Shown here: in pieces, positions 22,284-50,926 of the stretch | Layout: each line of letters starts with the position of its first letter | Numbering within the stretch: the first letter of the stretch is position 1 | DNA from: Ancylobacter sp. Lp-2 | Lineage (GTDB): Bacteria; Pseudomonadota; Alphaproteobacteria; Rhizobiales; Xanthobacteraceae | Length of the DNA: 64,000 bases | Assembly: GCF_020523795.1 (NCBI RefSeq) | Contig: NZ_JAJALI010000011.1 | Location: 1 to 64,000, forward strand | Reading direction: 5' to 3' | Translations under genes and position numbers: made by a program | The notes under the pieces: model-generated | The model's input: the letters and a program-made list of their open reading frames with translations, nothing else | The model's database searches: none | Told to the model about the DNA's origin: nothing

Positions 22284-22622
22284 TTAAGGTTTGACCTTGT
22301 CATCCTCGAACATGCGATAGCTGGTGTCCCTGTGCGTGCCCTTCGGACGGGCACGATCCCAACCCATCCGTTGGCGGAAGCTGCCGAGGAGGCCTCGATC
22401 GGCGAGATCTGCCTCCGAGACCGGCTCGTCGCGATCACGCAGGGGCGATACATAGAGCGCGTCGACGGGGCAGTAGAGTTCGCACAGGAAGCAAGTCTGG
22501 CAGTCTTCCTTGCGCGCAATCACCGGGATGCTGTTCTCGACCGCCTCGAATACGTGGTCGGGGCAGGCCTTGACGCAAAGATTACACGCGATGCAGCGCG
22601 TCGCGGAGAGAAGCTCGATCAT
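22284..22622 (-). CDS. 2[4Fe-4S] ferredoxin, AprB-like partner of the adjacent flavoprotein
   Basis: This 112-residue protein binds two [4Fe-4S] clusters and should pass electrons to or from the flavoprotein encoded just upstream. The motifs are CIACNLCVKACP (about residues 9-20) and CQTCFLCELYCP (about 40-51), with the same order and spacing as the AprB-type dicluster domain. The ATG at 22622 overlaps the flavoprotein stop (ATGA); a longer frame exists but would run into that gene. It closely resembles the ferredoxin at 29238-29564. No transporter gene follows; the next 1.2 kb is nearly empty. Confidence 0.88.
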   Translation of the reverse strand: MIELLSATRCIACNLCVKACPDHVFEAVENSIPVIARKEDCQTCFLCELYCPVDALYVSPLRDRDEPVSEADLADRGLLGSFRQRMGWDRARPKGTHRDTSYRMFEDDKVKP

Positions 22623-24211
22623 TCGGCGGCCAAGCTTTCGAGGGGTGGACGGTCGGTGACATGAGACCACCGCGACCAGACGCGGCCCAACCCGCCGGAA
22701 TGTATCCGCCGGGGCGGCTCGCCGGTCGATGTGGCGTCCTCACGACGATGGATCCCGCGACTCTCCGGTCGCGCCTGCGCACTCGCGACGATCCAGCGCG
22801 CGGTGGCCGTCATGGCAGCGGCTTCATGCGCTTTTTCCTGTCCGGGCAGGCGCCCGTCGAACCGTCGAACCGCTTGCCAGAGATCGTCGAGCCGCCGCGC
22901 CGAGACGGCGAGGCGGGCTCCCGAGCGGTAGAAGCTACGATCGAGTGGCAGCACTTCGTCTTGCACAGCCCGAATGATGCCGGCGATTTCCGCCCGCGCA
23001 TCGGCATGCGCGACATTCGTCCCGAGCGTCTCGGTGGCGGCGCGCGCCGGTCGGCGAGTGGCGAGAGGGCCGAGCGAACGAGCAAAACGGGCCGCGCCGC
23101 CGCCGGCCCACACGCCGGTTGCCAGCGCCCAGGAGGCGTTCGGCCCGCCGCCGCCGGAGGTGGCGCCGCTCATCGGTTCGCGCGCCGCGGCATCGCCAGC
23201 GGCATAAAGGCCGGGCAGGTCGGTCGCTCCATCCTGGCCGATCAGGATGCCGCCCACCCCACGCACCGTACCTTCATAGAGCAGCGTCACCTCGAAGGGC
23301 TGGGTGAAGGGATCGATACCCTGCCGGTCGAAGGGCAGAAAGATATTGGGCTGACCGTGTCGCATGCCCTCGCGGAGCCGCTCGGGGGCCTTGTCGAGCA
23401 CCGCGCGCACCGGCCCCCGGAGGAGATGGCGGGCGACGATCTCCTGCCGGTCGCCGGTCTCCTCGATGCGATTGCCGTCGGCGTCGAAGAGCGTCGCCCA
23501 GAAATAGACGATGCCCTTGGTCACCGAGGATCCCTTGGGGGCGATGCCGTACTGCCCGGTAAAGTCCATGCCTGCGAGGCGGGCGCCGAGCTCCGCCGCC
23601 ATCAGATAGCCGTCGCCGGTGAGGTTATGGGTGCCAAGGGCGCCGCTGAGGAATGCGCAGCCACCTGACGCGATCACGACGGCGCCAGCGTGCACCGTCC
23701 AGCGTTCGCCCGAGCCGCGCCACCAGCCGGAGACACCGGCCGCCGCGCCGTCATGGGCAAGCAATGTGTCGGCCGGAGCGTGGTCCAGGATGGTCACGCC
23801 TGCCTTCAGCAGTTTCCGGCGCATGAAATAGAGATAATCGACGCCGCGCATCGAGCCGCGGAACAGCAAGCCGTTATCGGAGGTAGGAAAGCCGTAGCCC
23901 CAGTCGGTGAGGCGGTCGAGCTGGCGGTGCGTCTCGTCGAGCACCCGCGTGACGATGTCTTCCTCGACGAGGCCGGCGCCCCGCGCGCGTCGCCGCTCCA
24001 ACGCCTCGAACTGCGCCACCGACCCGGGTGCGGCATCGATGATGGTGGTGTTGCCGGCGGCAGTGGCGCCGGAGGTGCCGACATAGCCCTTCTCGACCAC
24101 GACTACGCGCGCGCCTTGCTCGGCGGCGGTGAGGGCGGCCCAGCAGCCGGCCGGCCCGCCGCCGATTACGACGACGTCTGCCTCCAGTTTGGTATCCGCC
24201 TGGGCTGTCAC
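22619..24211 (-). CDS. FAD-dependent oxidoreductase, AprA/fumarate-reductase-like flavoprotein
   Basis: This 530-residue flavoprotein of the FAD_binding_2 type has the dinucleotide fold GGGPAG at about 17-22, the ribose-binding acidic residue near 40, and VEKGYVGTSGATAAGNT. The second FAD segment is DAAAREPMSGATSGGGGPNAS near 345-365. It is soluble and has no signal peptide. The start is GTG at 24211, overlapping the stop of the remnant gene upstream (GTGA). The partner ferredoxin is coupled downstream. The closest match in the window is the protein at 29561-31186. Family relatives include adenylylsulfate reductase alpha and fumarate reductase flavoprotein; the true substrate is unknown. Nearby sulfonate-type importers make an organosulfur or sulfite-type role plausible. 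Confidence 0.85.
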   Translation of the reverse strand: MTAQADTKLEADVVVIGGGPAGCWAALTAAEQGARVVVVEKGYVGTSGATAAGNTTIIDAAPGSVAQFEALERRRARGAGLVEEDIVTRVLDETHRQLDRLTDWGYGFPTSDNGLLFRGSMRGVDYLYFMRRKLLKAGVTILDHAPADTLLAHDGAAAGVSGWWRGSGERWTVHAGAVVIASGGCAFLSGALGTHNLTGDGYLMAAELGARLAGMDFTGQYGIAPKGSSVTKGIVYFWATLFDADGNRIEETGDRQEIVARHLLRGPVRAVLDKAPERLREGMRHGQPNIFLPFDRQGIDPFTQPFEVTLLYEGTVRGVGGILIGQDGATDLPGLYAAGDAAAREPMSGATSGGGGPNASWALATGVWAGGGAARFARSLGPLATRRPARAATETLGTNVAHADARAEIAGIIRAVQDEVLPLDRSFYRSGARLAVSARRLDDLWQAVRRFDGRLPGQEKAHEAAAMTATARWIVASAQARPESRGIHRREDATSTGEPPRRIHSGGLGRVWSRWSHVTDRPPLESLAAE

Positions 24212-24615
24212 GATGCGTCTCGGCCCGTCGACTTCCGCGAAGCGAGCTGGCGGCCCGGTGCATGGAGGCTGCTGTCCATCGTGGTCTCGGACAGGGAGAT
24301 GGCGCGCGCGCCGCGGCCTTGCGCGCCTCGACCTCCGCCGACACGCCGGCTACCTCGCCGCCGGTGGTGATCGGCATGTGCGCCGGGCTGGCGATGTGGA
24401 TCGGGACGTCGCGCGCTTTGAGCGGGATCGTCGGGCTTGATGCCGTCGGCACCGGCATTGGCGCTGCTGAAGGAGCTGGAGGCGCCGACATAATCCTTCT
24501 CGGCGGTCACCATGCGTGCGCGGGCTTCGGCGATGCTGAGCGCCACCCATATGCCGGCCGGTCCTCCACCGATGACCAGCACGTCTGTCTTGAGGCGGAT
24601 CTGTGAAGTTGCCAT
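24208..24615 (-). pseudogene. Remnant of a third AprA-like flavoprotein (truncated, frameshifted)
   Basis: The first 65 codons read MATSQIRLKTDVLVIGGGPAG and continue through a normal FAD-fold start (AEKDYVGASSSFSSANAGADG). The frame then turns into Arg/His-rich nonsense. The better protein continues in another frame (LKARDVPIHIASPAHMPITT and on through EVAGVSAEVEARKAAARA) before returning to the first. The whole is only 135 codons against about 530 for relatives, so most of the gene is gone. Its stop still overlaps the GTG of the intact flavoprotein by four bases. The 272 bases upstream to the next gene hold an AT-rich island and a - strand open patch (24700-24860) that I cannot name. Confidence 0.65.
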
Positions 24616-24628
24616 GGCCGCGTTCCGA

Positions 24629-24663
24629 ATTTATATAAATACGATAGATAATATAATTTATTG
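24629..24663 (-). promoter_or_regulatory. AT-rich control region of the 22-24 kb flavoprotein unit
   Basis: A 35-base island of almost pure A/T stands out in GC-rich DNA just before the remnant flavoprotein. Read on the - strand it contains TTATCTATCG (24642-24651), the same ten bases found before tctC at 48485-48494. TTGACG at 24665-24670 (- strand) could be a -35 box, with TATCGT as a weak -10. This is probably an activator site, inferred from composition and recurrence. Confidence 0.4.
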
Positions 24664-24887
24664 GCGTCAACTCCTTCATTGGTAAAATGTTGAGATGCAG
24701 GCTGAACTCTCGGAAACCCTTGACGCTGGACGGCCGGGCCAAGGTGCCGGACCACGAGCCTCGTCTCAGGTCTTAATTCCGGTTCGGTCTCGGCGCGCCA
24801 TACGGGAACGAGCTGCGAGAACCTCCCAAACGGGAAGTGATCGCAGCCCATCAGTGCCTGCAGCCGGAACGATGGGTCGCCCTTGTG

Positions 24888-25298
24888 CTAGCTCTCGATG
24901 AGGAAGGCGGTATCCACCGGCACCTGGAGCGCGGTAACGAGGGCATTAGTCTGCGCCGCCATGCCGATGATCGCGGTCAGATGGAGGTGCTGCGCGTCGG
25001 TCATGCCTTTGGCCCGCGCGGCGGCGGTGTGCGAGTGAATGCAATAGGAACAGCCATTGGCGGTCGAGACGGCGATGTAGATCAGTTCGCGTGTCAGAGG
25101 ATCGAGTGGCCCCTCGGCGAGCATCACCGCCTTGAGGCTGTCCCATGTCCGCGCCAGCGCCGCCGGATCGTTGGCGAGCGCCCGCCAGAAATTATTGATG
25201 AAATCGGACCTGCGCGTCGTGCGGATGTCGTCGAACACCGCCTTCACCGCGGGATGCCCCTCCACCTCGGCGTCGCTCCATAGCCGGATCGTCGTCAT
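24888..25298 (-). CDS. AhpD-like carboxymuconolactone decarboxylase family protein
   Basis: This is a small all-helical protein of the AhpD/CMD superfamily. The ATG at 25298, after GAGGAGGCGAAGGC, gives 136 residues; the longer frame upstream is Arg-rich and unlikely. The motif CSYCIHSHT, a CxxCxxxH redox site, lies at about 85-93, preceded by PLTRELIYIAVSTANG. Members reduce peroxides or act as redox partners, and some are decarboxylases; the CxxC favours a thiol-redox role. It is divergent from the MFS gene and sits near the flavoprotein unit. Confidence 0.85.
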   Translation of the reverse strand: MTTIRLWSDAEVEGHPAVKAVFDDIRTTRRSDFINNFWRALANDPAALARTWDSLKAVMLAEGPLDPLTRELIYIAVSTANGCSYCIHSHTAAARAKGMTDAQHLHLTAIIGMAAQTNALVTALQVPVDTAFLIES

Positions 25299-25432
25299 GC
25301 CTTCGCCTCCTCTTTCCTCGCGCCGCAGGCTTCCCGCCCGGCGTCTTCCCTTGTACCGCCCGACCCGCGTGCTGCCGGACCGATCCGGACGTGCGCGGCT
25401 CTCGATGCCGAGCCTATGAACGGAACCTACGC

Positions 25433-26677
25433 ATGCCTGACCCAGGTCAGACGACACCGGCCACATCCAGCCGTCCCTTCATTCTCTACGCTGCCGGGCA
25501 GGCCGTCTCCTCCACCGGCAGCTGGATGCAGCGCATGGCGATCGGCTGGCTGGCCTGGGAGTTGACCCAGTCGGTCGCCTGGATCGGTGCCATCGCCCTC
25601 ACCGAACTGGTGGCGGCACTGTGGGTGGCGCCGCTCGCGGGTGTCATCACCGACCGCAGCAATCCCTACCGGCTGAATCTCCTCTTCCAGTGCTGCGGCA
25701 TGGTGGTGACGCTGACGCTGTTCGCCGTCACCGTGACGGGGGCGATGACCATCGAACTGCTTTGGCTGCTGGCGCTGGCGGATGCCAGCTGGCAGGGACT
25801 GAGCCAGCCGGCCCGGGCCGTCGCCATCGGGTTCCTGGCCGACCGCCGCCACATGGCGCGGGCGGTGGCGGCCAATTCCATCGCCTTCAACGTTGCGCGT
25901 GCCGCTGGCCCGGCACTCGGGGGCTTTGTCATCGTCCATGCCGGAACGGCGGTGGTGTTCCTCGTCGACGGCGCCAGCTTCGCGGTGCTGATCTTCGTCC
26001 TCGCTCGCCTGCGCGCCGCTCTGGACCGCCCGGGCGCCGCCAGCGGTCGCAGCGTGCTGCAGGATTTCGTCGGCGGTTATCGCTATGTCGCCCGCACCCC
26101 GGCGGTCGCGACGGTGTTCCTGCTCGCTATCGCGTTCTCGGTGCTCGGTCGTCCCTTCACCGAACTGTTCCCTGCCATCGCCGGCGATATGCTGGGCGGT
26201 GGGCCTGGCGTGCTCTCGACGCTGATGAGCTTGCAGGGCGTCGGCGCCCTCATCGGCGGCAGCTGGATGCTGCGTCGGCGCTCCACCGACCGACTGGTAA
26301 CGGTGACCTATCTCGCCGGCATCGGTATGGCCGGCGCGCTCATCGCCTTCTGCTTCGTCGGGGACCGGACGGTGGCGTTCGTCCTGGTCGCCCTGGCCGG
26401 CCTCTGCCATGTGATGTGCAATATCGGCATGCAGTCGCTGGCGCAGCTGTTCTCCGACTCGATGTTCCGTGGCCGCACCATGGCGCTCTACGGCTTGATT
26501 TTCCGCACCGGTCCGGCCGCCAGCGCCGCGCTCATCGGCATCGCCGCCGGCTGGCTCGGCCTGCCGCTGCTGATCGGCATCGCCGCAGCGCTGTGCGCGG
26601 CAAGCCTCGTCGCGATCGGTCTCGCCCGGCGCCATGCCTTCGCCGACGGACCGCCCGAGACCGGGCAGAAGGTTTGA
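25433..26677 (+). CDS. MFS transporter (EntS/MFS_3-like)
   Basis: This 414-residue protein has about 12 hydrophobic segments and is probably an exporter or drug/metabolite permease of the major facilitator superfamily. The start MPDPGQTTPATSSRPF at 25433 leads directly into TM1; an earlier in-frame ATG adds only unconserved residues. The TM2-3 loop has a GVITDRSNPYRL motif (A-like motif D-R). Long runs such as SVLGRPFTELFPAIAGDMLGGG match the MFS_3/EntS type. It is divergent from the AhpD gene and convergent with the sulfonate ABC operon, so its substrate is not indicated. Confidence 0.85.
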   Translation: MPDPGQTTPATSSRPFILYAAGQAVSSTGSWMQRMAIGWLAWELTQSVAWIGAIALTELVAALWVAPLAGVITDRSNPYRLNLLFQCCGMVVTLTLFAVTVTGAMTIELLWLLALADASWQGLSQPARAVAIGFLADRRHMARAVAANSIAFNVARAAGPALGGFVIVHAGTAVVFLVDGASFAVLIFVLARLRAALDRPGAASGRSVLQDFVGGYRYVARTPAVATVFLLAIAFSVLGRPFTELFPAIAGDMLGGGPGVLSTLMSLQGVGALIGGSWMLRRRSTDRLVTVTYLAGIGMAGALIAFCFVGDRTVAFVLVALAGLCHVMCNIGMQSLAQLFSDSMFRGRTMALYGLIFRTGPAASAALIGIAAGWLGLPLLIGIAAALCAASLVAIGLARRHAFADGPPETGQKV

Positions 26678-26679
26678 TC

Positions 26680-26697
26680 GGCGCGAAAGGTCGCGCC
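26680..26697. terminator. Hairpin between convergent MFS and ABC genes
   Basis: GGCGCGA (26680-26686) and TCGCGCC (26691-26697) form a perfect 7-bp stem with a 4-base loop in the 37-base gap between two converging genes. There is no T-run on either side, so termination would be inefficient or factor-dependent. Confidence 0.4.
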
Positions 26698-26714
26698 TGG
26701 CGGACGCGGCTGGC

Positions 26715-27524
26715 TCAGGCAGCGTGCCGGTGGAGGTGAAGCAGATCGAGGATGTCCTGCTTCACTTCCACGAAGGCGCGCTCCGCCCGTTGGCGTGGCC
26801 GTGCACCGGCAATGTCGAAGATCTGCCGCACCCGTCCGGGGCGCGGGTCCATGACCACCACGCGGTTGGAGAGGAACACCGCTTCCTCGACATCGTGTGT
26901 CACCATCACCATGGCGATGCCTTCGTGCTCCCACAGGCGCAGCAATTCCTCCTGGAGATAGCCGCGCGTGAGCGAATCGAGGGCGCCCAGCGGCTCGTCG
27001 AGCAGCAGCAGGCGTGGGCGTGGCGCCAGCGCCCGGGCGATGGCGGCGCGCTGCGACATGCCGCCGGAAAGCTGGTGCGGCAAGGCCTTCTCGAAGCCGG
27101 AGAGACCGACGAGGCGGATCAGTTCGGCGACGCGGGTACGCTTTTCCTCCGCCGCGCCGGCCACGCTGTTGAGGCTGAGCAGGATGTTGGCCTCCACGCT
27201 CAACCAGGGCAGCAGGCGATGATCCTGGAAGACGATGCCGCGGGTGAGGCTGGGCTTCGTCACCTTCTGGCCGTCAACCGCGACGGTGCCGCTGTCCGGC
27301 ACATCGAGACCGGCGATGAGGCGCAGAAGAGTCGACTTGCCGCAGCCGCTCGGCCCGACGAGGCTGACGAACTCGCCCGGCCGCACGGCGAGCGAGACAT
27401 CCGTCAGCGCCTGCACCGTGCCGCCGTCGACGGCGAAGCTCTTCGAGACGTTGCGGATGTCGATGTCACTGCGATGCGGGCCGGCGGCTGGAGCGGTATG
27501 CGAGGCGTCTAGTGTCTGGACCAT
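26715..27524 (-). CDS. ABC transporter ATP-binding protein, nitrate/sulfonate/taurine type
   Basis: This cytoplasmic ATPase powers the importer encoded upstream in the same operon. Walker A is GPSGCGKST at 57-65, the Q-loop VFQDHRLLPWLS near 98, signature LSGGM at 152-156 and Walker B LLLLDEP at 172-178. It has 269 residues including a short N-terminal extension. SsuB/TauB/NrtD-type proteins share this pattern. The first 16 bases overlap the end of the permease gene. It is the last gene of the SBP-flavoprotein-ferredoxin-permease-permease-ATPase operon. Confidence 0.9.
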   Translation of the reverse strand: MVQTLDASHTAPAAGPHRSDIDIRNVSKSFAVDGGTVQALTDVSLAVRPGEFVSLVGPSGCGKSTLLRLIAGLDVPDSGTVAVDGQKVTKPSLTRGIVFQDHRLLPWLSVEANILLSLNSVAGAAEEKRTRVAELIRLVGLSGFEKALPHQLSGGMSQRAAIARALAPRPRLLLLDEPLGALDSLTRGYLQEELLRLWEHEGIAMVMVTHDVEEAVFLSNRVVVMDPRPGRVRQIFDIAGARPRQRAERAFVEVKQDILDLLHLHRHAA

Positions 27525-28327
27525 GGCAGGGCCCTCCGTGAAAGCAGCACGACGGCGCGGTCGAGCGCCAGCCCGACCACCGCCAGCGAGACGACGCCGA
27601 CGATCACCCGGTCCATGCGGGCAAATTCGCGGGCGGCGGCGAGATAGGCACCGAGTCCGTCGCCCATGCCGTTAATGTAGCCGGTGCCGATCAGGTACTC
27701 GGCGCCGAAGGTGCCGAGCCAGGCGATGTTGAGCGACAGTTCCAGCCCCGCGAGCAGCGCCGGGGTGGCCGCCGGCAGCACGATGCGGCGCAGCGTGGTG
27801 AGCCGGTCGAGCTCCAGCACACGGCCGATCTCGCGATAGGGCACAGGCACGTTGCGGCAGCCGGCCTCCGCCGCCAGCGCCATGGGAAAGAAGGCGCCGA
27901 GCGCGATCAGCGTGATCTTCATCAATTCGCCGTTGCCGAACCAGGCGCTGAGCAGCGGAATCCAAGCGAAGAGCGCGATCTGTCGGGCGCTGTTGATGGT
28001 CGGGTCGCCGATGCGCCGGGCGATGCCGGAGAGGCCGAGCAAGGTGCCGACGAGGAAACCCGCGGAGATGCCGATGGCCGAACCGATCAGCGCCCGCAGC
28101 AACGTCGCCGCCAGGGCGAAGGGCACCGCGCCCGAGGCAAAATCCTCGATGGCGGTGTGCAGTACGACCTGCGGCGGGCTGAAGAGCTCGGGGTTGACGA
28201 GACCCGCGGCGCTGATCGCCGCCCATATCGCGATCAGCGCGATCGGCAGCAGGGCTCCGCGCCAGAGACGGCCGCAGCGGGTCAAGGCCGGCTGTGAGGG
28301 GGAGGATGTGGGGGGGGCGGTGCTCAT
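27509..28327 (-). CDS. ABC transporter permease (SsuC-like), second of two
   Basis: This 272-residue inner-membrane permease has about six transmembrane segments. The cytoplasmic coupling (EAA) loop is near 165-190, with EAGCRNVPVPYREIGRVLELDRL. It resembles the SsuC/TauC/NrtB group. A related permease is encoded immediately upstream (4-base gap). Two non-identical permeases suggest a heterodimeric channel, unlike the homodimer usual for SsuABC. Confidence 0.88.
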   Translation of the reverse strand: MSTAPPTSSPSQPALTRCGRLWRGALLPIALIAIWAAISAAGLVNPELFSPPQVVLHTAIEDFASGAVPFALAATLLRALIGSAIGISAGFLVGTLLGLSGIARRIGDPTINSARQIALFAWIPLLSAWFGNGELMKITLIALGAFFPMALAAEAGCRNVPVPYREIGRVLELDRLTTLRRIVLPAATPALLAGLELSLNIAWLGTFGAEYLIGTGYINGMGDGLGAYLAAAREFARMDRVIVGVVSLAVVGLALDRAVVLLSRRALPWSRH

Positions 28328-28331
28328 CGCC

Positions 28332-29207
28332 TCACCTCACGCTATGGAAGGACCAGCGAGTGGTCCGGTTCTGCAGCTTCAGCAGCCCATGGTCGAGCGC
28401 CCAGCCGACGAGACCGATGACGATCATCGTGGCGAATACCACGTCGAGCTGGAACGATTTGCGCCCCCACATCATGAGGTAGCCGATGCCTGCCGCCGAG
28501 GCGAGCATCTCGACGAGGATGAGCGCTTTCCATCCTTTGGAGAGCGAGAGGCGGAAGCCGGTGGCGATGGCCGGCAGCACCGCCGGCAGCACGATGTGGC
28601 GCAGCCGGGCGCGGCGATCGAGTTCCAATGCCCGTGCGACGTCGTCATATTTCGCCGGCATCGAGCGGATGGCTTCGAACACCCCGACCATCAGCGGCAG
28701 GAAGGCGGTCTTGGCGATCAGGACGATCTTCAGTGTCTCGCCAATGCCGAGCACCAGCATGAAGAAGGGCAGCCAGCCGAGCGAGGGGACCAGGAAGAAG
28801 GCGCGTATGGTCGGCGCGGCATAGGTTTCCAGCGTCCGCGACAGGCCGAACGCGACGCCGACGGCCAGTCCGGCAAGGCCACCAAGCAGGACGCCGGTCA
28901 TCACCCGCGCGAGACTGACCGCGAGTTCGTGTGCGAGCTGGCCGGAAGTGGCGAGCTCCAGACCGGTTTGCCAGACGAGGCTCGGCGCCGGCAGGATCTG
29001 CGGCGCCAGCCATTCCTGGCGGACGGCCACCGACCAGATAAGCACCAGCACCGCCGGCAACGACAAGCCGAGAAGGACGGTGACGGCGAAGCTGCCGCCG
29101 CGCCGCCAGGCCCGCGAAACGGCGTGCGGTGCATCCCAGCTGGTGATGTCGGGCGCCAGGCCACCCGGCACCAAACCCTGGGAACGCTGGATTCCGATAT
29201 CGGACAT
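28332..29207 (-). CDS. ABC transporter permease (SsuC-like), first of two
   Basis: This 291-residue permease has six or so transmembrane spans. The EAA-type loop is FEAIRSMPAKYDDVARALELDRR near 195-215. The start is placed at the ATG at 29207, preceded by GAGGAGAG; an ATG five codons earlier has no such site. It lies between the ferredoxin gene and the second permease and works with the ATPase at 26715-27524. Confidence 0.88.
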   Translation of the reverse strand: MSDIGIQRSQGLVPGGLAPDITSWDAPHAVSRAWRRGGSFAVTVLLGLSLPAVLVLIWSVAVRQEWLAPQILPAPSLVWQTGLELATSGQLAHELAVSLARVMTGVLLGGLAGLAVGVAFGLSRTLETYAAPTIRAFFLVPSLGWLPFFMLVLGIGETLKIVLIAKTAFLPLMVGVFEAIRSMPAKYDDVARALELDRRARLRHIVLPAVLPAIATGFRLSLSKGWKALILVEMLASAAGIGYLMMWGRKSFQLDVVFATMIVIGLVGWALDHGLLKLQNRTTRWSFHSVR

Positions 29208-29237
29208 GGCTGCTCTCCTCACGGTGGCGGGGTGAAA

Positions 29238-29564
29238 TCAAAGAAAGGCGCGCAATTCGAAGGTGGGGTCGTTTTCGGCACCGGCGGCCTTGCCGCGCTT
29301 CCAGCCGAGCGCGCGGGCATAGCTGCCAAACAGCCCGCGCGCGGTGATTTCCGCTTCGTCGATGCCGGTCGGCCTTTCGGCATTCGGATCGACGAATAAT
29401 GCGTCGGCGGGGCAGTAGATCTCGCAGAGAAAGCACGTCTGGCAGTCTTGCTGCCGGGCGATCACCGGAACCCTGCCCGGGCCGCCGTCGAACACATTGG
29501 CCGGGCAGGCCTTCACGCAGATATCGCAGGCGATGCAGCGCGTCGCGGACACGACCTCGATCAT
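29238..29564 (-). CDS. 2[4Fe-4S] ferredoxin, AprB-like, in a sulfonate-type ABC operon
   Basis: This 108-residue dicluster ferredoxin has CIACDICVKACP (about 9-20) and CQTCFLCEIYCP (about 41-52). It shares most of its sequence with the ferredoxin at 22284-22622, including the VIAR-x2-DCQTCFLCE core. Its ATG overlaps the flavoprotein stop (ATGA), so the two subunits are made together. It should be the electron-transfer partner of that flavoprotein. Confidence 0.9.
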   Translation of the reverse strand: MIEVVSATRCIACDICVKACPANVFDGGPGRVPVIARQQDCQTCFLCEIYCPADALFVDPNAERPTGIDEAEITARGLFGSYARALGWKRGKAAGAENDPTFELRAFL

Positions 29565-31186
29565 GACTGCGCCACCCGCAACGGCGAGGCATAGCTCGCG
29601 CGATCGAGAGCTACGCCGATTTCGTCGAGCCCGAAGGTGCGGATGCGATGGGCGAAGTGCGGATCGGATTCCGGAGCGTCGCTACGTCGGTGAAGCCCAC
29701 GGCTTTCATTGCGAAACACGGCGCTGGCGAGCGCCCAGCGCGAGGAGGCGAGCAGCGCGCCGGCTTCGCGGGTGCGAATGGCAGCTGCGCCTTCGCCCGC
29801 GAGGGTGGCCTGGGCGTCGCGCCAAAGCCCGTCCAGCCGGGTCAGGCTGCGTCGCAGTTTCGGGCCGGTTCGGAAAAAGTTGCCGTCGATGGCAAGCATC
29901 TCCTTGCGCACGGCTGCGACGACATCGGTACTCGCTTCCGCCTCGGGACGGGCACTGCGAGCGACCAGCCCAATGCCGCCGAGCCGACGAAGTTTTCCTG
30001 TCACGTCCCGCTTCGAGCTCACCGCCGTGCGGGCCGCCGCCGCACCCGCCCAACGGCCGGAGGCGATAGCCCAGGACGCGTTGGGGCCGCCGCCTCCAGA
30101 GGCCGCGCCGGCAATATCCTCGCGGCTTGCGGCATCGCCTGCGGCGTAGAGGCCGGGAATGCCGGTCCAGCCGCCCTCGTCGAGAAGGCGGATCCCGCCA
30201 ACGCCGCGCACCGTCCCTTCACCGCGCAACGTGATCTCGAAGCGTTGCGTGAACGGATCAACGCCGATGCGGTCAAACGGCAGGAAGCAGTTCGGCTGGC
30301 CGCGCCGCAGCCAGTCCTGGATCTCCGGCCCCGCCTTGTCGAGGCGGGCAAAGACGGGGCCGCGCAGCAGTCCCTTCGCCACCGCGACGTGCCGGTCGCC
30401 GGCGCTCATGTCGAGCGGCTTGCCATCGACATCGAAGAAGCTCGCCCAGCGATAGGGGAGGCCCTTGTTGAGCGAGCTGCCGGCGGGTGCCACGCCGTAC
30501 TGGCCGCAGAATTCCATACCGGAGAGGCTGGCACCCGCCTCGGCGGCCATGAGATAGCCGTCGCCCGTTAGGCCGGTGGCGCCGAGCATGCGTTCGCCGA
30601 AGGCACAGCCGCCGGTCGCCAGCACCACCGCGCCAGCCGTCACCTGCCAGGGACGGTTCTGCTGTCGATCCCATCCCGCCGCGCCGACGATGGCGTCGTC
30701 CGCGCCGAGCAGCTCCAGCGCCGGATGATGGTCCAGCACGATGACGCCGCGCTTCAGGGCGAGGCGGCGCATGTGGCGCATGTAGTCGGGGCCGCGCAGA
30801 TTGGCGATGTAGAGTTCGCCATCGGACTGGCGCGGAAAGGGGTAGCCGTCGTTCCCAAGCATGCGCAGCGCCTCATGGGCGGTATCGAGCATGCGCAGCA
30901 TGACATGCGGATCGGCGAGCCCGAACGCACGGGCGGCGCGACGCTCCACCTGGGCGGCGCGGGCCTCGCCCGGCGGCACGCACCACGTGCCGGTGTTCGA
31001 CGGTGCCGTGGCGCCGCTGGTGCCGAAATAGCCCTTGTCGGCCAGTACCACTCGGCGGCCATTCTCGGCCGCCGTCACCGCCGCCCATGCGCCCGCGGGT
31101 CCGCCACCGAGGACGAGGACATCGGCCTCCAGGGTGAGCGGAGCGGTCCGGTCAGCCGACTTCCGGCGAGGTGAGGTGTGCGGCAT
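29561..31186 (-). CDS. FAD-dependent oxidoreductase, AprA/fumarate-reductase-like, in ABC operon
   Basis: This 541-residue soluble flavoprotein has the FAD fold LGGGPAGAW at about 26-34, then DKGYFGTSGATAPSNTGT. A second FAD/substrate region near 355-375 reads AGDAASREDIAGAASGGGGPNAS. It is a clear paralogue of the protein at 22619-24211, with family resemblance to AprA and fumarate reductase. It is encoded between a periplasmic binding protein and its ferredoxin partner, ahead of two permeases and an ATPase. A cytosolic flavin/Fe-S enzyme acting on the imported compound is the natural inference; the chemistry is not shown. Confidence 0.87.
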   Translation of the reverse strand: MPHTSPRRKSADRTAPLTLEADVLVLGGGPAGAWAAVTAAENGRRVVLADKGYFGTSGATAPSNTGTWCVPPGEARAAQVERRAARAFGLADPHVMLRMLDTAHEALRMLGNDGYPFPRQSDGELYIANLRGPDYMRHMRRLALKRGVIVLDHHPALELLGADDAIVGAAGWDRQQNRPWQVTAGAVVLATGGCAFGERMLGATGLTGDGYLMAAEAGASLSGMEFCGQYGVAPAGSSLNKGLPYRWASFFDVDGKPLDMSAGDRHVAVAKGLLRGPVFARLDKAGPEIQDWLRRGQPNCFLPFDRIGVDPFTQRFEITLRGEGTVRGVGGIRLLDEGGWTGIPGLYAAGDAASREDIAGAASGGGGPNASWAIASGRWAGAAAARTAVSSKRDVTGKLRRLGGIGLVARSARPEAEASTDVVAAVRKEMLAIDGNFFRTGPKLRRSLTRLDGLWRDAQATLAGEGAAAIRTREAGALLASSRWALASAVFRNESRGLHRRSDAPESDPHFAHRIRTFGLDEIGVALDRASYASPLRVAQS

Positions 31187-31210
31187 GTGGCGACTGTTCC
31201 AGTAGTAGGG

Positions 31211-31244
31211 AAGGCGCGTCCGACCCTCGAGCCGAACGCGCCTT
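31211..31244 (-). other. Long hairpin between binding-protein and flavoprotein genes
   Basis: On the - strand AAGGCGCGT and ACGCGCCTT pair for 9 bp and extend inward with wobble pairs to about 13, leaving a 7-8 base loop. No T-run follows. Such a hairpin after a binding-protein gene may protect its mRNA and lower expression of the genes after it. Confidence 0.5.
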
Positions 31245-31263
31245 GCTTCTCTGTTTCAAGCGA

Positions 31264-32340
31264 TCAGCTTTGCGGCTCGCCCTTGGCGTTGCGCGCCGTC
31301 CAGGCCTTCTCGACGCCGAGTTCCTTGATGGCGGCGTTCAGATAGGTCGGGTCGATCCACTGGTTGACGTCGAACGACGTCTTGATGAGCTTGTTCTCCA
31401 GGGCGAAGGTCACGCCGTTGGTGATGTTGGTCTTGTAGAAGTCGTCCAGCAGCGGGCTCAGCCGGTCGGCGAGCTTGTCGCCCGCGAAGTCGTTGGCGAG
31501 GGCCTCGCGCGGCACGCCGGTCAGCGCCCAGATGTCGAGCACGGCGTCGCGGTTCTTTTCGTCGGAAGCGAAGGCGGCGGCCTCGACGAAGGCCTTCACC
31601 ACTCGCTTGGTGGTTTCGGGATATTTGCTGGCGAAGGCCTCGGTGACGATGAAGGAGCCGAACAGGCTGCCGGGCGCCGGGCTGCCCTTGGTGGAGTACA
31701 CGGTCTTCACCGTGCCCTTCTCCACCAACGGCAGCAGATTGTTGCCGCCGAGCACGGCATCGACGTCGCCGGTGGTGACGGCGGCGACCTGGTCGGCCGA
31801 TTGCAGGTCGAAGATGGTGACGTCCTTTTCCGTCAGGCCGCCTTGCGCGAGGACGCGATTGAGCGCCAGCTCGTTGATGGTGCCGCGCGAGACGGCGATC
31901 TTCTTACCCTTCAGATCGGCGATCTTCCCGACGCCGCGGTCGGGACGAGCGACGAGATAGGAGGGGTTGGTGCCGTAGGACGCCAGCACCTTGGTCTTCA
32001 GTCCGGCGCCACGGCCGACGATGTTCGGCAGGCCGCCATAGTTGGCGAAATCGGCCTGTCCGTTCGCCAGCGCCTCGTTGATGGCGGGACCGGTACCGCG
32101 CGGAAACTGCCACTCGATCTTCACGCCGTCCTTGGCGAATTCCTTTTCGAGATATTCCTTGGCACGAACCACGCCGATGACCGCCGAGCCATAGGGCTTG
32201 CCCGCCGCATTCCCCTGGCCGGCGAGGCGGATGACATCGGGCGGCGTTTCCGCGCGCGCCGGGATGGCAACGAAGGCGGCGAGCGCAGCGGCGGCGATCA
32301 GAAGGCGGCGGCCGAATGTCCGGGAGATGGGGTGCGACAT
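31264..32340 (-). CDS. ABC transporter substrate-binding protein, nitrate/sulfonate/taurine type
   Basis: This is a periplasmic ligand-binding protein of the SsuA/TauA/NMT1 type and the first gene of the operon. The ATG at 32340 begins MSHPISRTFGRRLLIAAAAL, a signal peptide cleaved near AIPARAE (about residue 30). Mature features are RGTGPAINEALANGQADFANYGGLPN near 85-110 and the hinge segment KGKKIAVSRGT. The 358-residue length fits. An upstream AT-rich region with TTGACA is the likely promoter. The ligand cannot be told from sequence. Confidence 0.88.
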   Translation of the reverse strand: MSHPISRTFGRRLLIAAAALAAFVAIPARAETPPDVIRLAGQGNAAGKPYGSAVIGVVRAKEYLEKEFAKDGVKIEWQFPRGTGPAINEALANGQADFANYGGLPNIVGRGAGLKTKVLASYGTNPSYLVARPDRGVGKIADLKGKKIAVSRGTINELALNRVLAQGGLTEKDVTIFDLQSADQVAAVTTGDVDAVLGGNNLLPLVEKGTVKTVYSTKGSPAPGSLFGSFIVTEAFASKYPETTKRVVKAFVEAAAFASDEKNRDAVLDIWALTGVPREALANDFAGDKLADRLSPLLDDFYKTNITNGVTFALENKLIKTSFDVNQWIDPTYLNAAIKELGVEKAWTARNAKGEPQS

Positions 32341-32432
32341 GGCAAAATTCCGATGAGATGGAAGCCCGGCGCGCAGCGGCACGAACACGTCTGCGGACCA
32401 GATGGGCATCCCATCGTGCCGTGAAATCGGTG

Positions 32433-32470
32433 AATGTCAATAAATTCTATAAATTTAATATATAATAGAC
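32433..32470 (-). promoter_or_regulatory. AT-rich activator/promoter region of the SBP-flavoprotein operon
   Basis: TTGACA on the - strand (32435-32440) is preceded directly by a 25-base A/T-only stretch (TATTATATATTAAATTTATA within 32445-32467). An activator site abutting a -35 box is the layout seen also before tauA (49545-49578). The -10 (ACGATG, 17 bases on) is weak, consistent with activator dependence. Confidence 0.45.
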
Positions 32471-32548
32471 CCGGCACGGCTCCCAGACGTGTCGCTGGCA
32501 GCATCCGTCCGCGTGTCTCCGGTCGAGGCCAAGGGGCGCGACGGCGGG

Positions 32549-33556
32549 CTACGGGTGTTTTGCGGCCGTTCGCCCCTGAGCTGGCGATGTGTCGTGCATC
32601 CGCTTCCACACGCGGCGAAATTGTCGGCTGGAGGCGAAACCCGCTCTTTCGGCGATGCTCTCCATGTCGAGCCGCGAGCCAACGACCAATTCGCGGGCGA
32701 GGGCGATTCTCACGCGATTCACATAATCGGTGACGCTCATACCCGCATGTTCGTTGAACAGTCGCGACAGGTTGCGGGGGCTCGCTCCGGCACTTCGTGC
32801 GATCTCCTCCACCGACCAGTTTCGAGTTGGGTCGGCAGTGATGTCGTCTTGCGCGCGGTGAATAGCCGGATGGATGTGGTTGCGACCTTCGAGCCATGGC
32901 GACAGTTGCGGATCGGCGCCGCCACGCCGGAGATAGACGACGAGGTAGCGGGCGACGGCAAGGGCCGTCGCGGGTCCTGCTTCCTGCGCGATGACATGCA
33001 GCATGAGGTCGATGCCGGCGGTGATCCCGGCGCTGGTCATCCGGTTGCCATCCTCGACGAAGAGACGGTTCTCGCATATGCGGGCTAACGGTGCGAGGCG
33101 CCTGAGCTCGGGCAGCGCGCCGTGATGGGTGGTGCAGTCATGGTCGTCGAGCAGACCGGCGCGTGCGGCCAGCAAGGCGCCGGAACAGATGGTGATGAGC
33201 CGGACGGATTTGCCGACGGAGCGCGCCAGCCACGTCGTGATCGCCTCCTCCAATTCACGGTCTTCCAACCGAGGCGGGTGGCTTTCGCCAAGCGGCAGGT
33301 CGACGGCTCCGGCGACAATGACCAGCGCATCGTCCGGAAGGCCGTCGGGCAGGGGAGCGATGCCCGACAGAGCAAGCCCTATCGAGCTGCCTATGGCATC
33401 CGCTGGCCCGATATAGGTGACGTCGAAACGCACCTCCGCTTGTTCCAGATTAGCCTTGCGGAGCGCCTCCATCGGGCCGGCAATGTCGAGGAGCAGCGCG
33501 CGCGGAGGCACGACCACGAAAACCGGGATCGTTCTCAACGCCGGCTCCTTGGTCAT
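32549..33556 (-). CDS. GlxA-type transcriptional regulator (DJ-1/PfpI + AraC HTH)
   Basis: This 335-residue regulator has an N-terminal DJ-1/PfpI-like domain (about 1-190, with TICSGALLAARAGLL near the usual nucleophile position) and a C-terminal AraC helix-turn-helix pair (about 230-325). The HTH contains NWSVEEIARSAGASPRNLSRLF and SIAERAGFASSRQFRRVWK. The ATG at 33556 overlaps the stop of the hydrolase gene upstream (ATGA). It lies divergent to no gene but 200 bases from the SBP promoter, so it could control either its own hydrolase operon or the SBP operon. Confidence 0.87.
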   Translation of the reverse strand: MTKEPALRTIPVFVVVPPRALLLDIAGPMEALRKANLEQAEVRFDVTYIGPADAIGSSIGLALSGIAPLPDGLPDDALVIVAGAVDLPLGESHPPRLEDRELEEAITTWLARSVGKSVRLITICSGALLAARAGLLDDHDCTTHHGALPELRRLAPLARICENRLFVEDGNRMTSAGITAGIDLMLHVIAQEAGPATALAVARYLVVYLRRGGADPQLSPWLEGRNHIHPAIHRAQDDITADPTRNWSVEEIARSAGASPRNLSRLFNEHAGMSVTDYVNRVRIALARELVVGSRLDMESIAERAGFASSRQFRRVWKRMHDTSPAQGRTAAKHP

Positions 33557-34140
33557 GCCGCGCTTCGCTCGGCCGAGGAGGCGAGGGCCGCCTCCACCGT
33601 GGCAATGCGGGCAAAGCGCCCGGCCAGGACCAGTTCCGTTCGCGCGCGAATTTCGGCGGCGCTCCATTCGCGTCCCGTGGCATCGGTCATCGGGAAGGTC
33701 AGCGTGGCCTCGCCCACGTAGTCGACGCCGTATCCGAGGTCGGAAGCGTGACGGGTCGTGGTCTCGCAGCATTGTTCGGTGCGGATGCCGGAGACGATGA
33801 TCCGGCGAACGCCGTTCCTTGTCAGCCACACGTCGAGACCGGAGCCGATCAGGGCGCTGTGGCGCCGCTTCTGGAAGACCGCGTCGGCTTCGAGGCGCAG
33901 CGGTGCGAGGGCCGTCAGCAAGCCCGATGCCTCGGAAAAGGGGCCGATTTCCTCGACGTGGAAGATCTGCACCACGGGGATGCCGAGGGTTGCCGCGCCA
34001 TCGATCAGCGCCTGTTGGCGTTCGATATAGGCCGGCAGGCCATCTTCACGGAAATACGGGCGGTGACGGAAAGATTCCTGCGCGTCGATGACGAGCAGAG
34101 CGGTTTGGGCGGACATTCTTGTCGTCTCCATCGTTTTCAC
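33553..34140 (-). CDS. Isochorismatase-like cysteine hydrolase
   Basis: This 195-residue enzyme of the cysteine hydrolase superfamily cleaves amide, ester or vinyl-ether type bonds. The expected triad is visible as D19 (LLVIDAQ), K91 (VFQKRRHSAL) and C124 (RTEQCCETT). The start could be the ATG at 34140, 34131 or 34116; the conserved part begins at 34110. It is translationally coupled to the GlxA-type regulator downstream. GlxA-type regulators are often paired with such hydrolases; the substrate is unknown. Confidence 0.85.
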   Translation of the reverse strand: MKTMETTRMSAQTALLVIDAQESFRHRPYFREDGLPAYIERQQALIDGAATLGIPVVQIFHVEEIGPFSEASGLLTALAPLRLEADAVFQKRRHSALIGSGLDVWLTRNGVRRIIVSGIRTEQCCETTTRHASDLGYGVDYVGEATLTFPMTDATGREWSAAEIRARTELVLAGRFARIATVEAALASSAERSAA

Positions 34141-34372
34141 ATGGAGACATGATGGCTCAGTTCATACAACGTGAAATGGCATTTCCTGACAATCATCGGA
34201 CAGTTCGCGCCATAAGGAGGCCGTGGGGATGGCGGTACTGGAGGCCGTCCGCGCGGCGCCCAAGCGGGCGTCGGTTCCCGCGTCATTCTGCACACGGCAA
34301 GATGGGGTCGTCGCGACCCGTGCCTTCACGATGTGGGGGCGCTGTGTCCGGCGAGCCCCGTCGCTGCTGGCG

Positions 34373-34813: not shown

Positions 34814-36232
34814 ATGGCAGCTCGTAGCGCGATGACGTCCTTGACTTCGAGCGGGGATAGGTCTCGTCGGGCCGTCATTGTCGGCGGTGGTGCGAACGGT
34901 ACCTGGATGGGCGTGCATCTGGCGAGAGTGCCGGGGATCGAGGAAATCGTACTCATCGACCGGGATGGGCGGTTCGGTCGGGGCGTCGCCTACTCGGCCA
35001 CGGCGGATTGCCACCGGCTCAACGTGCCGGCCGAGCGCATGGGCGGGCGCGACCAGGAGGATGGCGCCGGCTTCGCGACCTGGCTGCAGCGGAACGGATG
35101 GCCGGCCGGTCGAACTTATGAAGACACTTTCGTTCCCCGCCGTCTCTATGGCGATTATCTCTGCGCCGAATTGGCAGCGGTGGAGGCGACCAGGCGCCTG
35201 AGCCGGCTTCGCGACGATGTGCAGGCACTTGAGCGGCGGCCGGGCGGCCACGCGGTCGTTACCGCTTCCGGCAAGACGATCGAGGCCGCCACGGTGGTAC
35301 TGTGTCTCGGCAACCCGCCGCCGGCACCGATCCGGGCAACCGTGCCCGCACCGCGACTCGTACCGGATATCTGGGCGGCTGGCAGCCTCGATCCGATCCG
35401 CGCCTCGGACGATGTGGTCATCGTCGGCACGGGGGCGACCGCCATCGATGCCGTGCTCGAACTCGTCCGGCGCGGCGTCGGATCGCGTATCCGCATGATC
35501 TCGCGCGGGGGGCGGCTGCCCCTTGTCGATGCGCCGGGCCTGCCGTGCGATCCGCTGGACCCTATTCCCGCCGACACGGTGCGCGGCATGATGACGGCCT
35601 TGCGCGCGGCCATCTCCGACCATGCGGAGCGCGGCATCCCCTGGCAGAGCGTGTTCGATGCCTTCCGCGCCCGCGCCGGTGACATATGGCTCGCCCTGTC
35701 GAATGACGAGCGCCGCCGATTCCTGCGCCATCTTCGTTCACCCTGGCTCGTCCACCGGCATCGGTTGGCGCCCGACATCGCCCGTCAGATGGAGAAGCTG
35801 CAGGCGGAGGGGCGCGTCGAAATCATTGCCGCGCGCGTGCTGGGTGGCGAACCGACCCCGGAAGGCTATGCCTTGCGGCTGCATCGGCGCGGCAGGCCCA
35901 TGGAGGCCGGCGAAACGCTGGAGACCGACTGGGTCATCAACTGCACCGGTCCTGACGAGCACTATTCCCGCAGCCGCATTCCGCTGGTGCAGTCCCTGCT
36001 CAGCTGTGGCGTGGCCCGTCCCGGTCCTTTCGGCCTGGGTCTCGATTGCGACCATCGACATCGCTTAGTCGATGCGGATGGGCAGGCCCATGCCGGCCTC
36101 TATCTGGTCGGCCCGCCCGGTCGCGGGCGGTTCTGGGAAGTGACGTCCGTACCCAATGGCCGTGATCAATGTGTGAACGTGGCCAAAGACGTAGCCGCCA
36201 CGCTCGTCCCGGTGGCTTCTCAAACGACTTAA
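34814..36232 (+). CDS. FAD/NAD(P)-binding protein (NAD_binding_9 type)
   Basis: This 472-residue flavoprotein-like oxidoreductase has the N-terminal dinucleotide motif AVIVGGGANGTWMGVHLA (about 20-37) and GVAYSATADCHRLNVPAERM, typical of the HI0933/NAD_binding_9 group. A second Rossmann GxGxxA motif, VVIVGTGATAIDAVLEL, is at about 199-215. An alternative ATG at 34832 would remove six residues. It is encoded 45 bases before an SBP gene in the same direction and appears to lead an ABC/amidohydrolase operon. The reaction is unknown. Confidence 0.82.
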   Translation: MAARSAMTSLTSSGDRSRRAVIVGGGANGTWMGVHLARVPGIEEIVLIDRDGRFGRGVAYSATADCHRLNVPAERMGGRDQEDGAGFATWLQRNGWPAGRTYEDTFVPRRLYGDYLCAELAAVEATRRLSRLRDDVQALERRPGGHAVVTASGKTIEAATVVLCLGNPPPAPIRATVPAPRLVPDIWAAGSLDPIRASDDVVIVGTGATAIDAVLELVRRGVGSRIRMISRGGRLPLVDAPGLPCDPLDPIPADTVRGMMTALRAAISDHAERGIPWQSVFDAFRARAGDIWLALSNDERRRFLRHLRSPWLVHRHRLAPDIARQMEKLQAEGRVEIIAARVLGGEPTPEGYALRLHRRGRPMEAGETLETDWVINCTGPDEHYSRSRIPLVQSLLSCGVARPGPFGLGLDCDHRHRLVDADGQAHAGLYLVGPPGRGRFWEVTSVPNGRDQCVNVAKDVAATLVPVASQTT

Positions 36233-36265
36233 CTCGTATATATCCATCGATTTTATCGACAATAA
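36231..36265 (+). promoter_or_regulatory. AT-rich element before the second SBP gene
   Basis: The 45-base gap between the flavoprotein and binding-protein genes is A/T-rich (CGTATATATCCATCGATTTTATCGACAATAAGG). It contains CATCGATTTTATCG, related to the TCTATCGATTT motif near tctC. It may carry an internal promoter or operator. The end supplies the ribosome binding site GGTGGAG. Confidence 0.3.
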
Positions 36266-36277
36266 GGTGGAGTTTCC

Positions 36278-37309
36278 ATGACCAGCGCCTCCTCTCCCTC
36301 ATTTCTCAGCCGCCGATCCGTGCTGCAACTGGGCGCAGCGGGTGCTGTCGCCTCCGCTCTTCCCTGGGGAGGCGCGCATGCGGCCGATATCAACGCCACG
36401 CTCGCCTATGGCAGCACGGGCTATACATGGGCGCTCACCTTCGTCGCGGAGGCGCTGGGCACGTGGAAGCAGAACGGCGTCAATCTCAACGTCATCGACT
36501 TTCCGACCGGCCGTGAATCCATGCAGGCGCTGCTCGCCGGCTCGGCGGATTTCTCGACCTCGACGGACACGCCCTTCATCTTCGCGGCGCTGCAGGGGCT
36601 GAGGCCGATCGTTCTCGTCAATTACAGCCGCTACACCCGCGACATGAAGGTGGTGGTTAGCAAGGCCAGCGGCATCGACCCGAAGTCTCCGGCGAGCCTC
36701 AAGGGCAAGAAGATCGCCACCCGCGTGGGCACCAGCGGCCAGTACATGCTGGCGAAATATCTGGAGATGGCCGGCCTCGGCCTTGGCGACGTCACCGTCG
36801 TCGACCTCTCGCCCAACGACATGACGGTCGCCACGGTGCGTGGCGATGTCGACGGCTTCGCCTGGACCGGACAGGCGGCGAACGTGGCGCTCAAGCAGTC
36901 CGGCGGACAGGTCGAGGTGATGACCCAGGAAGGCTTCGAGAAGTTCTTCCAGAGCCATCAGCTGCTGCTCACCTCCGAGAAGGTGATCAAGGAGAATCCG
37001 GCGCTGCTCGCCGCTGCGGTGAAGTCGCTGTTCGGCGCGGAGGAGCGCATCAATTCGGACCCGAACTGGGCCACGCTCATTTCGGAGCGCGTGCGCGCGC
37101 CGGCTGAGGAGATCAAGGACGCCACCAGCGTGTTCGAGTTCAAGATCGGCTTCGACGAGCGATTCCTCGACGATCTCGTAGCGCAGGCGGAATGGGCCAT
37201 CGCCGCCGGGCTCTCCAAGCGGCCGGAGGGCGATCTGCGCGCCCTGCTGCGCGGCCTCATCTATGAGGGACCCGTCAAGGCGGCAAAGCCCGACCGGGTC
37301 ACGATCTGA
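36278..37309 (+). CDS. ABC transporter substrate-binding protein (NMT1/SsuA-like), Tat-type signal
   Basis: This 343-residue periplasmic binding protein has an N-terminal signal containing FLSRRSVLQLGAAG, a twin-arginine motif, cleaved near AHAAD (about 35). Mature features are GRESMQALLAGSADFSTSTDTP and KGKKIATRVGTSGQY, the two lobes of SsuA/TauA-like proteins. The GTG of the ATPase gene follows two bases after its stop. It works with the ATPase and permease that follow. Confidence 0.88.
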   Translation: MTSASSPSFLSRRSVLQLGAAGAVASALPWGGAHAADINATLAYGSTGYTWALTFVAEALGTWKQNGVNLNVIDFPTGRESMQALLAGSADFSTSTDTPFIFAALQGLRPIVLVNYSRYTRDMKVVVSKASGIDPKSPASLKGKKIATRVGTSGQYMLAKYLEMAGLGLGDVTVVDLSPNDMTVATVRGDVDGFAWTGQAANVALKQSGGQVEVMTQEGFEKFFQSHQLLLTSEKVIKENPALLAAAVKSLFGAEERINSDPNWATLISERVRAPAEEIKDATSVFEFKIGFDERFLDDLVAQAEWAIAAGLSKRPEGDLRALLRGLIYEGPVKAAKPDRVTI

Positions 37310-37311
37310 CC

Positions 37312-38909: not shown

Positions 38910-38919
38910 ATGGCGTGAC

Positions 38920-41837: not shown

Positions 41838-41856
41838 GGCAAGGTTCCCTGGCGGA

Positions 41857-43011: not shown

Positions 43012-43044
43012 GGAGCAGTCTCCGCGCTGGCGGTGAAAAGGGGA

Positions 43045-48453: not shown

Positions 48454-48481
48454 GAATCCTCACTCGTGGCATTGTCGCCAC

Positions 48482-48576: not shown

Positions 48577-48594
48577 GCCGCCGCGTCGCAACCC

Positions 48595-49494: not shown

Positions 49495-49544
49495 CGCAAG
49501 CCGGCCGGAATGATGCGGGGAGGCGGAGAGGCTGGCGCATCGGA

Positions 49545-50792: not shown

Positions 50793-50845
50793 TCCCCGAC
50801 GAGGTTCCCGAGCGCCGTCTTCGAGGCTACCGAACGGCGTAACTT

Positions 50846-50896: not shown

Positions 50897-50926
50897 GGGA
50901 AGCCCGTTCCGTACAGGCTGAACGCG

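Follow-up and report, generated by a model that had tools for sequence, protein, structure and literature searches.

Probable asfAB-type flavoprotein-ferredoxin pairs and an associated sulfonate-type ABC importer in Ancylobacter sp. Lp-2

The asf gene set (asfRABC) comprises a flavoprotein or reductase (AsfA), a ferredoxin (AsfB), a substrate-binding protein (SBP), an ATP-binding cassette (ABC) transporter and a LysR-type regulator (PMC4267179). In Pseudomonas putida S-313, asfA mutants have lost the use of aromatic sulfonates but retain that of aliphatic ones; asf acts on top of ssu, in which SsuD receives its reduced flavin from SsuE (PMC4267179). The reductase-ferredoxin pair AsfA/AsfB of Cupriavidus metallidurans is Rmet_4334/5, asfRAB being located on the second replicon, CHR2; sqhC of the same organism is Rmet_4148 (PMC2864759). 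The asfA gene has been used as a marker to track the release of sulfonate-sulfur in soil (PMC9694294, PMC4267179), and work on asfA is cited in PMC3506598 and PMC4070957. No description of the AsfA reaction was found in the literature searched on asf. Here, two AsfAB-type pairs, one of them within an importer operon, are described from Ancylobacter sp. Lp-2 (RefSeq assembly GCF_020523795.1). They lie on contig NZ_JAJALI010000011.1, of which positions 1 to 64,000 were analysed; this whole stretch of 64,000 nucleotides is referred to as the window.

Each pair consists of a flavin adenine dinucleotide (FAD) protein and a 2[4Fe-4S] ferredoxin (Table 1), and in each the two genes are coupled by an ATGA overlap of 4 bases (22619-22622 and 29561-29564). 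A preliminary description of the window had reported both pairs, and its overlap coordinates and flavoprotein lengths were confirmed; each ferredoxin has eight cysteines. It had also placed the second pair inside one operon (operon 2), which agrees with the protein families found: the order on the minus strand is SBP, FAD protein, ferredoxin, permease, permease, ATPase, with intergenic gaps of at most 77 bases and an overlap between the genes for permease b and the ATPase. All eight genes of the pairs and the importer are under purifying selection when compared with Ancylobacter sonchi, the ratio of nonsynonymous to synonymous substitution rates (dN/dS) being 0.05-0.16. A whole-genome search for the flavoprotein returned two intact copies, one fragment and two more matches at E = 2.5e-4 or worse. 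Judged by its sequence, the asfAB/importer unit is real, conserved and functional-looking.

Table 1. Features of the window discussed in the text (window positions; the length of the locus 1 ferredoxin is counted from the ATG inside the overlap)
Feature	Position	Strand	Basis and remarks
AsfB-type 2[4Fe-4S] ferredoxin, locus 1	22284..22622	-	112 aa; Fer4 families; 8 Cys; dN/dS 0.05
AsfA-type FAD protein, locus 1 (FAD1)	22619..24211	-	530 aa; FAD_binding_2; tree; dN/dS 0.16
Open reading frame with remnant (~24419-24615) of a third asfA-like gene, N-terminal part only	24208..24615	-	homology search
ABC ATPase	26715..27524	-	PF00005 (ABC_tran); dN/dS 0.12
ABC permease b	27509..28327	-	PF00528 (BPD_transp_1); dN/dS 0.13
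ABC permease a	28332..29222	-	PF00528 (BPD_transp_1); dN/dS 0.07
AsfB-type 2[4Fe-4S] ferredoxin, operon 2 (Fd2)	29238..29564	-	108 aa; Fer4 families; 8 Cys; dN/dS 0.11
AsfA-type FAD protein, operon 2 (FAD2)	29561..31186	-	541 aa; FAD_binding_2; tree; dN/dS 0.16
Periplasmic SBP, SsuA/NMT1 type, AsfC position	31264..32409	-	PF09084 8e-22; dN/dS 0.06
AraC-type regulator, FtrA/GbdR-like below cut-offs	32549..33829	-	directly upstream of SBP gene
Cluster: FAD/NAD(P)-binding protein (NAD_binding_9), second SsuA-like SBP, ATPase, permease, amidohydrolase	34814..40596	+	families; ATPase and permease by eye
Two SsuD-like FMNH2-dependent (LLM) monooxygenase genes	41857..44262	-	PF00296; TIGR03565 224 and 217 bits, cut-off 518

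Homology, phylogeny, gene content and co-occurrence make it very probable that these genes are of the asf kind. On the second replicon of C. metallidurans, the sole match at E <= 1e-30 is found at 928 kb with a ferredoxin gene directly behind it (locus L027), and an open reading frame (ORF) which, from its motifs, we take to encode a squalene-hopene cyclase lies at ~725 kb. Because these two map positions fit the gene numbering, the pair is taken to be Rmet_4334/5. Its best matches in the window are FAD1 and Fd2 (50% identity each); identity to FAD2 is 44%. Given this homology to the named AsfA and AsfB and the matching importer, the arrangement is already in print: the combination, which the preliminary description had left without a name, matches the published asfABC (PMC4267179). 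In the seven records with annotation, out of eight retrieved, the flavoprotein is labelled 'FAD-binding protein' and its partner either bears a 4Fe-4S name or is called 'ferredoxin family protein'. The window shares with the P. putida S-313 and C. metallidurans clusters the order of AsfA then AsfB, an SBP and ABC transporter accompanying the pair (in operon 2), and ssu genes in the same genome, where SsuD (621 bits, cut-off 518.2) is encoded elsewhere and adjoins an SsuE-like gene (99.6 bits, under the cut-off of 164). It differs in having an AraC-type instead of a LysR-type gene adjoining the operon, two permease genes, and two intact pairs plus a remnant. The importer components score best or near best with SsuABC/TauABC or Sao/nitrate ABC models, all below curated cut-offs, so that the substrate is not fixed by these matches.

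A phylogenetic tree comprised 118 rows, of which 109 formed a single group that holds C. metallidurans AsfA and both flavoproteins of the window and is separate from AprA, SdhA/FrdA and NadB. This group takes in Alpha-, Beta- and Gammaproteobacteria, Cyanobacteria, Bacillota, Actinomycetota and Myxococcota. FAD2 belongs to a subclade of 29 rows (support 99) and FAD1 to one of 6 rows (support 95); the pairs are 51% identical, and the duplication is therefore not a recent one. The earlier term 'duplicated' holds in the sense of two homologous pairs only. The 109 rows exclude a different FAD_binding_2 protein of A. sonchi (L030:19667-21196), which was rejected as an AsfA. A locus from a Rokubacteriota metagenome-assembled genome (L038:7904-11593) was left out of the tree and kept in the locus counts below; it has an open frame of 1229 aa with an AsfA-like C-terminal end, which is either a fusion or an overlong frame.

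The flavoproteins were correctly placed in the SdhA/FrdA/AprA/NadB superfamily from the outset. For the seven AsfA proteins tried, no model of NCBIfam release 20 reaches its cut-off; the best-scoring among the 25 models listed per flavoprotein are those for aspartate oxidase, coenzyme M/coenzyme B (CoM/CoB) fumarate reductase and SdhA/FrdA, all under cut-off. 'AprAB-like', the label first given to the pairs, is apt as far as superfamily kinship goes, but the model for the alpha subunit of adenosine 5'-phosphosulfate (APS) reductase gives the window proteins only 71 and 42 bits (cut-off 557). At 1e-20 this AprA model, TIGR02061, finds nothing in the genome; across 299 genomes of the phylum it hits 38 at 1e-100. 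Profile comparison gave 7.5e-27 with SdhA/FrdA (two sequences) versus 3e-14 with AprA (seven sequences), both being small alignments. Against solved structures, the AsfA profile matched SdhA at 3.9e-36, FrdA at 2e-33, the alpha subunit of the 3'-phosphoadenosine 5'-phosphosulfate (PAPS) reductase of Methanothermococcus thermolithotrophicus (MtPAPSR, 8a8o) at 2.1e-30 and AprA at 3e-20. AprB is presumably larger than an AsfB-type ferredoxin. MtPAPSR likewise consists of a flavoprotein (571 aa) and a small iron-sulfur subunit (104 aa). The AsfA profile covers its alpha subunit over nearly the full length, although sequence similarity is low; Fd2 matches its beta subunit at 1.2e-5, ranked under many other ferredoxins. 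It differs in that its substrate is PAPS and its pathway sulfate assimilation (PMC10322725). In a Pfam scan, the matches of the FAD proteins were of FAD/Rossmann type and began at the N-terminal FAD site; a distinct domain for NAD(P)H was not among them.

The 109 AsfA rows were also aligned to E. coli FrdA, by sequence alignment that may be off by a few columns. The dicarboxylate-binding positions of FrdA, which we take to be H232, T244, E245, R287, H355 and R390, are mostly occupied by other residues: Tyr replaces H232 in 100 of 109 rows, Lys or Arg replaces E245 in 102, Glu replaces H355 in 102, and R390 falls in a gap in all 109. Threonine is partly kept at T244 (73/109, with Asn in 26/109). 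The R287 column is mixed (Arg in 46/109); the window protein has an Arg one column away, and a shift of the alignment there is possible. By this alignment, no more than one or two of the six site residues of fumarate reductase are retained in the window proteins, and neither the curated cut-offs nor the dicarboxylate-site residues, with roles as assumed here, bear out membership of the SdhA, FrdA or NadB families. AsfA agrees with the five AprA rows at two positions, with Gly where FrdA has its FAD-binding His and Tyr where it has H232.

The preliminary description noted the lack of an oxygenase in operon 2 and proposed an oxygen-independent redox step. The former is true of the operon itself, but the SsuD-like genes of Table 1 lie ~9.4 kb upstream of it and the genome encodes a full SsuD. 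SsuD scores over its cut-off in 12 of 13 AsfA genomes versus 11 of 48 without AsfA (61 related genomes; Fisher 8e-6), and in 11 of 12 versus 71 of 385 among 397 genomes of the order (Fisher 1.7e-7). It should be noted that these tests ignore kinship and that the two samples share genomes; in the first stage of the 397-genome scan, at most 3 (AsfA) and 5 (SsuD) candidates were scored per genome, which makes absences softer than presences. Six of the 13 AsfA genomes have a match to the SsuD model (1e-40) no more than 20 kb from AsfA. One relative (G002) has the order asfA, asfB, ATPase, permease, SBP, Rrf2 regulator, full-length ssuD and FAD/NAD(P) protein, with ssuD 4 kb from asfA. Co-occurrence and clustering with SsuD therefore suggest joint work with a flavin monooxygenase rather than an oxygen-free pathway, which is not supported.

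Conservation of the neighbourhood was assessed in the best 80 of at least 496 relatives from one scan of a genome collection (79 named loci), a sample biased to near relatives. A ferredoxin gene lies directly downstream of asfA in 73 of 79 loci, and the six exceptions are all Nostocaceae by record title. Within 6.5 kb of asfA there is an SBP gene in 63 loci and at least one same-strand ABC gene in 64; SBP, permease and ATPase genes are all found within that distance on the same strand in 44. The tie between the pair and a sulfonate-type importer, as first described, is thus not confined to the window. When eight plasmid loci are added to give 87, the gene types of operon 2 (SBP, both permeases, ATPase, AsfA and ferredoxin) are found again, all on the same strand, at ten of them, although in two of these (L058 and L098) the set is not side by side; the gene order of the window, the conservation of which had been put forward as a check, is found among the ten only in A. 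sonchi. Using a short library of oxygenases (LLM, TauD, 2-oxoglutarate or acyl-CoA-dehydrogenase type) and stretches of up to ~21 kb per locus, a library oxygenase gene was found anywhere in the stretch in 32 of 79 loci. A gene for an AhpC/TSA-type redoxin, which might handle peroxide, lies upstream of asfA at no fewer than 13 of the 79 loci (e.g. L022:8373-8960, annotated as thioredoxin family). In C. metallidurans, an ORF of the fatty-acid-desaturase type, an O2-using family, lies immediately 5' of asfA (L027:7837-8868). It was rejected as the cognate oxygenase: such a gene is beside no other AsfA locus searched, and one homologue is present elsewhere in the genome of the window.

Sulfur content gives a further indication of function. 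Cys+Met percentages were ranked against 265 ORFs of the same genome; the percentiles are conservative because other organosulfur genes, on contig C27, form part of this background. The SBP of operon 2 (0.28%, 3.4th percentile, read from 32343), TauA (0.30%, 3.8th) and the first LLM enzyme (0.52%, 6.0th) are as poor in these residues as expected for sulfur-starvation proteins. The permeases are not low, and the adjoining amidohydrolase cluster ranges from the 27th to the 88th percentile. Very Cys/Met-poor genes form another group on contig C27, at ~20-100 kb (L121-L124), among them those for LLM-like proteins and an SsuA over its cut-off (0.31%). Cys/Met poverty may be an aid to spotting sulfur-starvation genes in this genome.

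Taken at somewhat better than even odds, the locus would serve asfAB-type scavenging of sulfonate-sulfur, with an importer and an AsfAB redox step that enables SsuD-type release of sulfite; the sulfonates are probably aromatic. The SBP, permeases and ATPase would carry the sulfonate into the cell, and AsfA, with AsfB as relay ferredoxin, would perform a redox step on it. That step would allow sulfite to be released by a monooxygenase dependent on reduced flavin mononucleotide (FMNH2) whose gene lies elsewhere in the genome, either SsuD itself or an LLM enzyme resembling it. Characterised relatives in the superfamily of AsfA act on their substrate at the FAD. For this reason, and since AsfA shows no separate NAD(P)H domain, it is tentatively preferred to regard AsfA as the substrate-acting subunit and AsfB as the electron relay. 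In a more specific version, which is rather speculative, AsfA would be a novel protein of the fumarate-reductase fold that acts on the substrate itself: low-potential electrons from AsfB would reduce, or add hydride to, an aromatic or unsaturated sulfonate, so that an inert aryl C-S bond would become alkyl-like and then cleavable by SsuD. The fumarate-binding residues would in that case have given way to a conserved set of Tyr, Lys/Arg and Glu/Arg suited to another anion. Compared with a substrate-acting AsfA in general, it is slightly less probable that AsfAB is purely an electron-transfer chain, in which the reductase AsfA and the ferredoxin AsfB would supply a C-S-opening oxygenase. The co-occurrence with SsuD would fit such a chain, as would the desaturase-type ORF preceding C. 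metallidurans asfA, were it not that this neighbour does not recur at the other loci searched; the domain content of AsfA and the behaviour of its characterised relatives speak for a substrate-acting protein instead. The role as an electron chain is stated in PMC4267179 and suggested in PMC2864759, but by the account in PMC4267179 SsuD would not need a ferredoxin, since its reduced flavin comes from SsuE.

Were AsfAB alone to split or reduce the imported compound, the pathway would be an oxygen-independent reductive desulfonation, as first proposed. We consider this improbable. The absence of an oxygenase gene from operon 2 and the near full-length match to the MtPAPSR alpha subunit are in its favour, but the SsuD co-occurrence and clustering are not, and the named genera among the matches listed (with their bias to near relatives) are aerobic or facultative by general knowledge. 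On the published side, MtPAPSR, as a related pair, is proposed to attack sulfur via N5 of the FAD (PMC10322725), whereas PMC4267179 reports a requirement for ssu. Distant kinship with AprAB and MtPAPSR might suggest an APS/PAPS reductase of sulfate assimilation; this is very unlikely in view of the AprA model scores, the tie to an importer, and the two PAPS_reduct-family genes already present in the genome, a family that covers CysH and CysD. Least credible is an enzyme of the fumarate reductase, succinate dehydrogenase or aspartate oxidase type for an imported dicarboxylate: the best profile matches are of the SdhA/FrdA/NadB types, yet their scores are far under the family cut-offs and the FrdA site residues, as numbered and interpreted here, are mostly replaced.

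Several observations count against assignment to asf or against sulfonate scavenging with SsuD. The SBP reaches 145.5 bits with TIGR01728 (cut-off 163.5) and the permeases 128 and 116 bits with the SsuC model (cut-off 347). The AsfA group is split from the outgroups at 89 SH-aLRT on very long outgroup branches. The FAD proteins are not clearly Cys/Met-poor (1.70% and 2.59%; 27th and 47th percentile). The library of oxygenases found no match in 47 of 79 loci, in stretches of up to ~21 kb, which would also suit reductive desulfonation. One genome (G009) is, in both samples, the sole AsfA genome without a full SsuD; it has the same cluster as G002 with asfAB intact and only a 93-residue C-terminal fragment of ssuD (L146:5044-5325). 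Finally, no LysR-type gene was seen adjoining operon 2; the LysR gene at 48595-49494 is 16 kb off. In C. metallidurans, too, a single LysR query found no match in the ~19.5 kb of L027, and none of the three ORFs preceding asfA is of LysR type; AsfR is therefore taken as part of the type cluster and not as defining AsfAB. Kinship is claimed with AsfAB, not with a complete asfRABC.

The remnant of a third asfA-like gene is 43% identical to FAD2 across ~70 residues. It shares 47 of 65 residues with the start of a longer A. sonchi homologue (L030:16596-18212), and the remainder of the ORF is nonhomologous; a dN/dS of 0.80 for this copy was not used, as about half of the 132 codons spanned are nonhomologous. 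The intact second flavoprotein is 94% identical to its A. sonchi counterpart, and synteny with A. sonchi (93%) covers window positions 24419-34214. The window has nothing corresponding to ~6.1 kb that A. sonchi carries between the remnant and the first pair; in the listed part of this segment the third flavoprotein gene is completed, and a ferredoxin, a further FAD protein and a binding protein are encoded. Also within the syntenic stretch, and between the two pairs of the window, there are a carboxymuconolactone-decarboxylase-type gene and an MFS-like ORF, the latter assigned by eye (24888-26677).

Two more groups of genes lie upstream of operon 2. The SBP-ATPase-permease-amidohydrolase part of the plus-strand cluster (36278-40596) has a counterpart with 52-68% identity adjoining AsfAB in C. 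metallidurans (L027), without the FAD/NAD(P) protein; in Azospirillum (L024), such a set plus the FAD/NAD(P) protein lies behind AsfAB. The genes of the region 41214-51703 look organosulfur-related: besides the two SsuD-like LLM enzymes, they encode a glutathione S-transferase (GST), an SfnB-like protein of the acyl-CoA-dehydrogenase type, a LysR regulator, a TctA/TctB/TctC-type transporter and a TauA that passes its cut-off; next after TauA comes an ORF that resembles an ABC ATPase by eye.

The arrangement is already known as asf, and in this respect the finding is largely ordinary. The point of interest is the chemistry of AsfA. The residue comparison and the co-occurrence with SsuD make it directly testable whether AsfA is a substrate-acting subunit or an electron donor.

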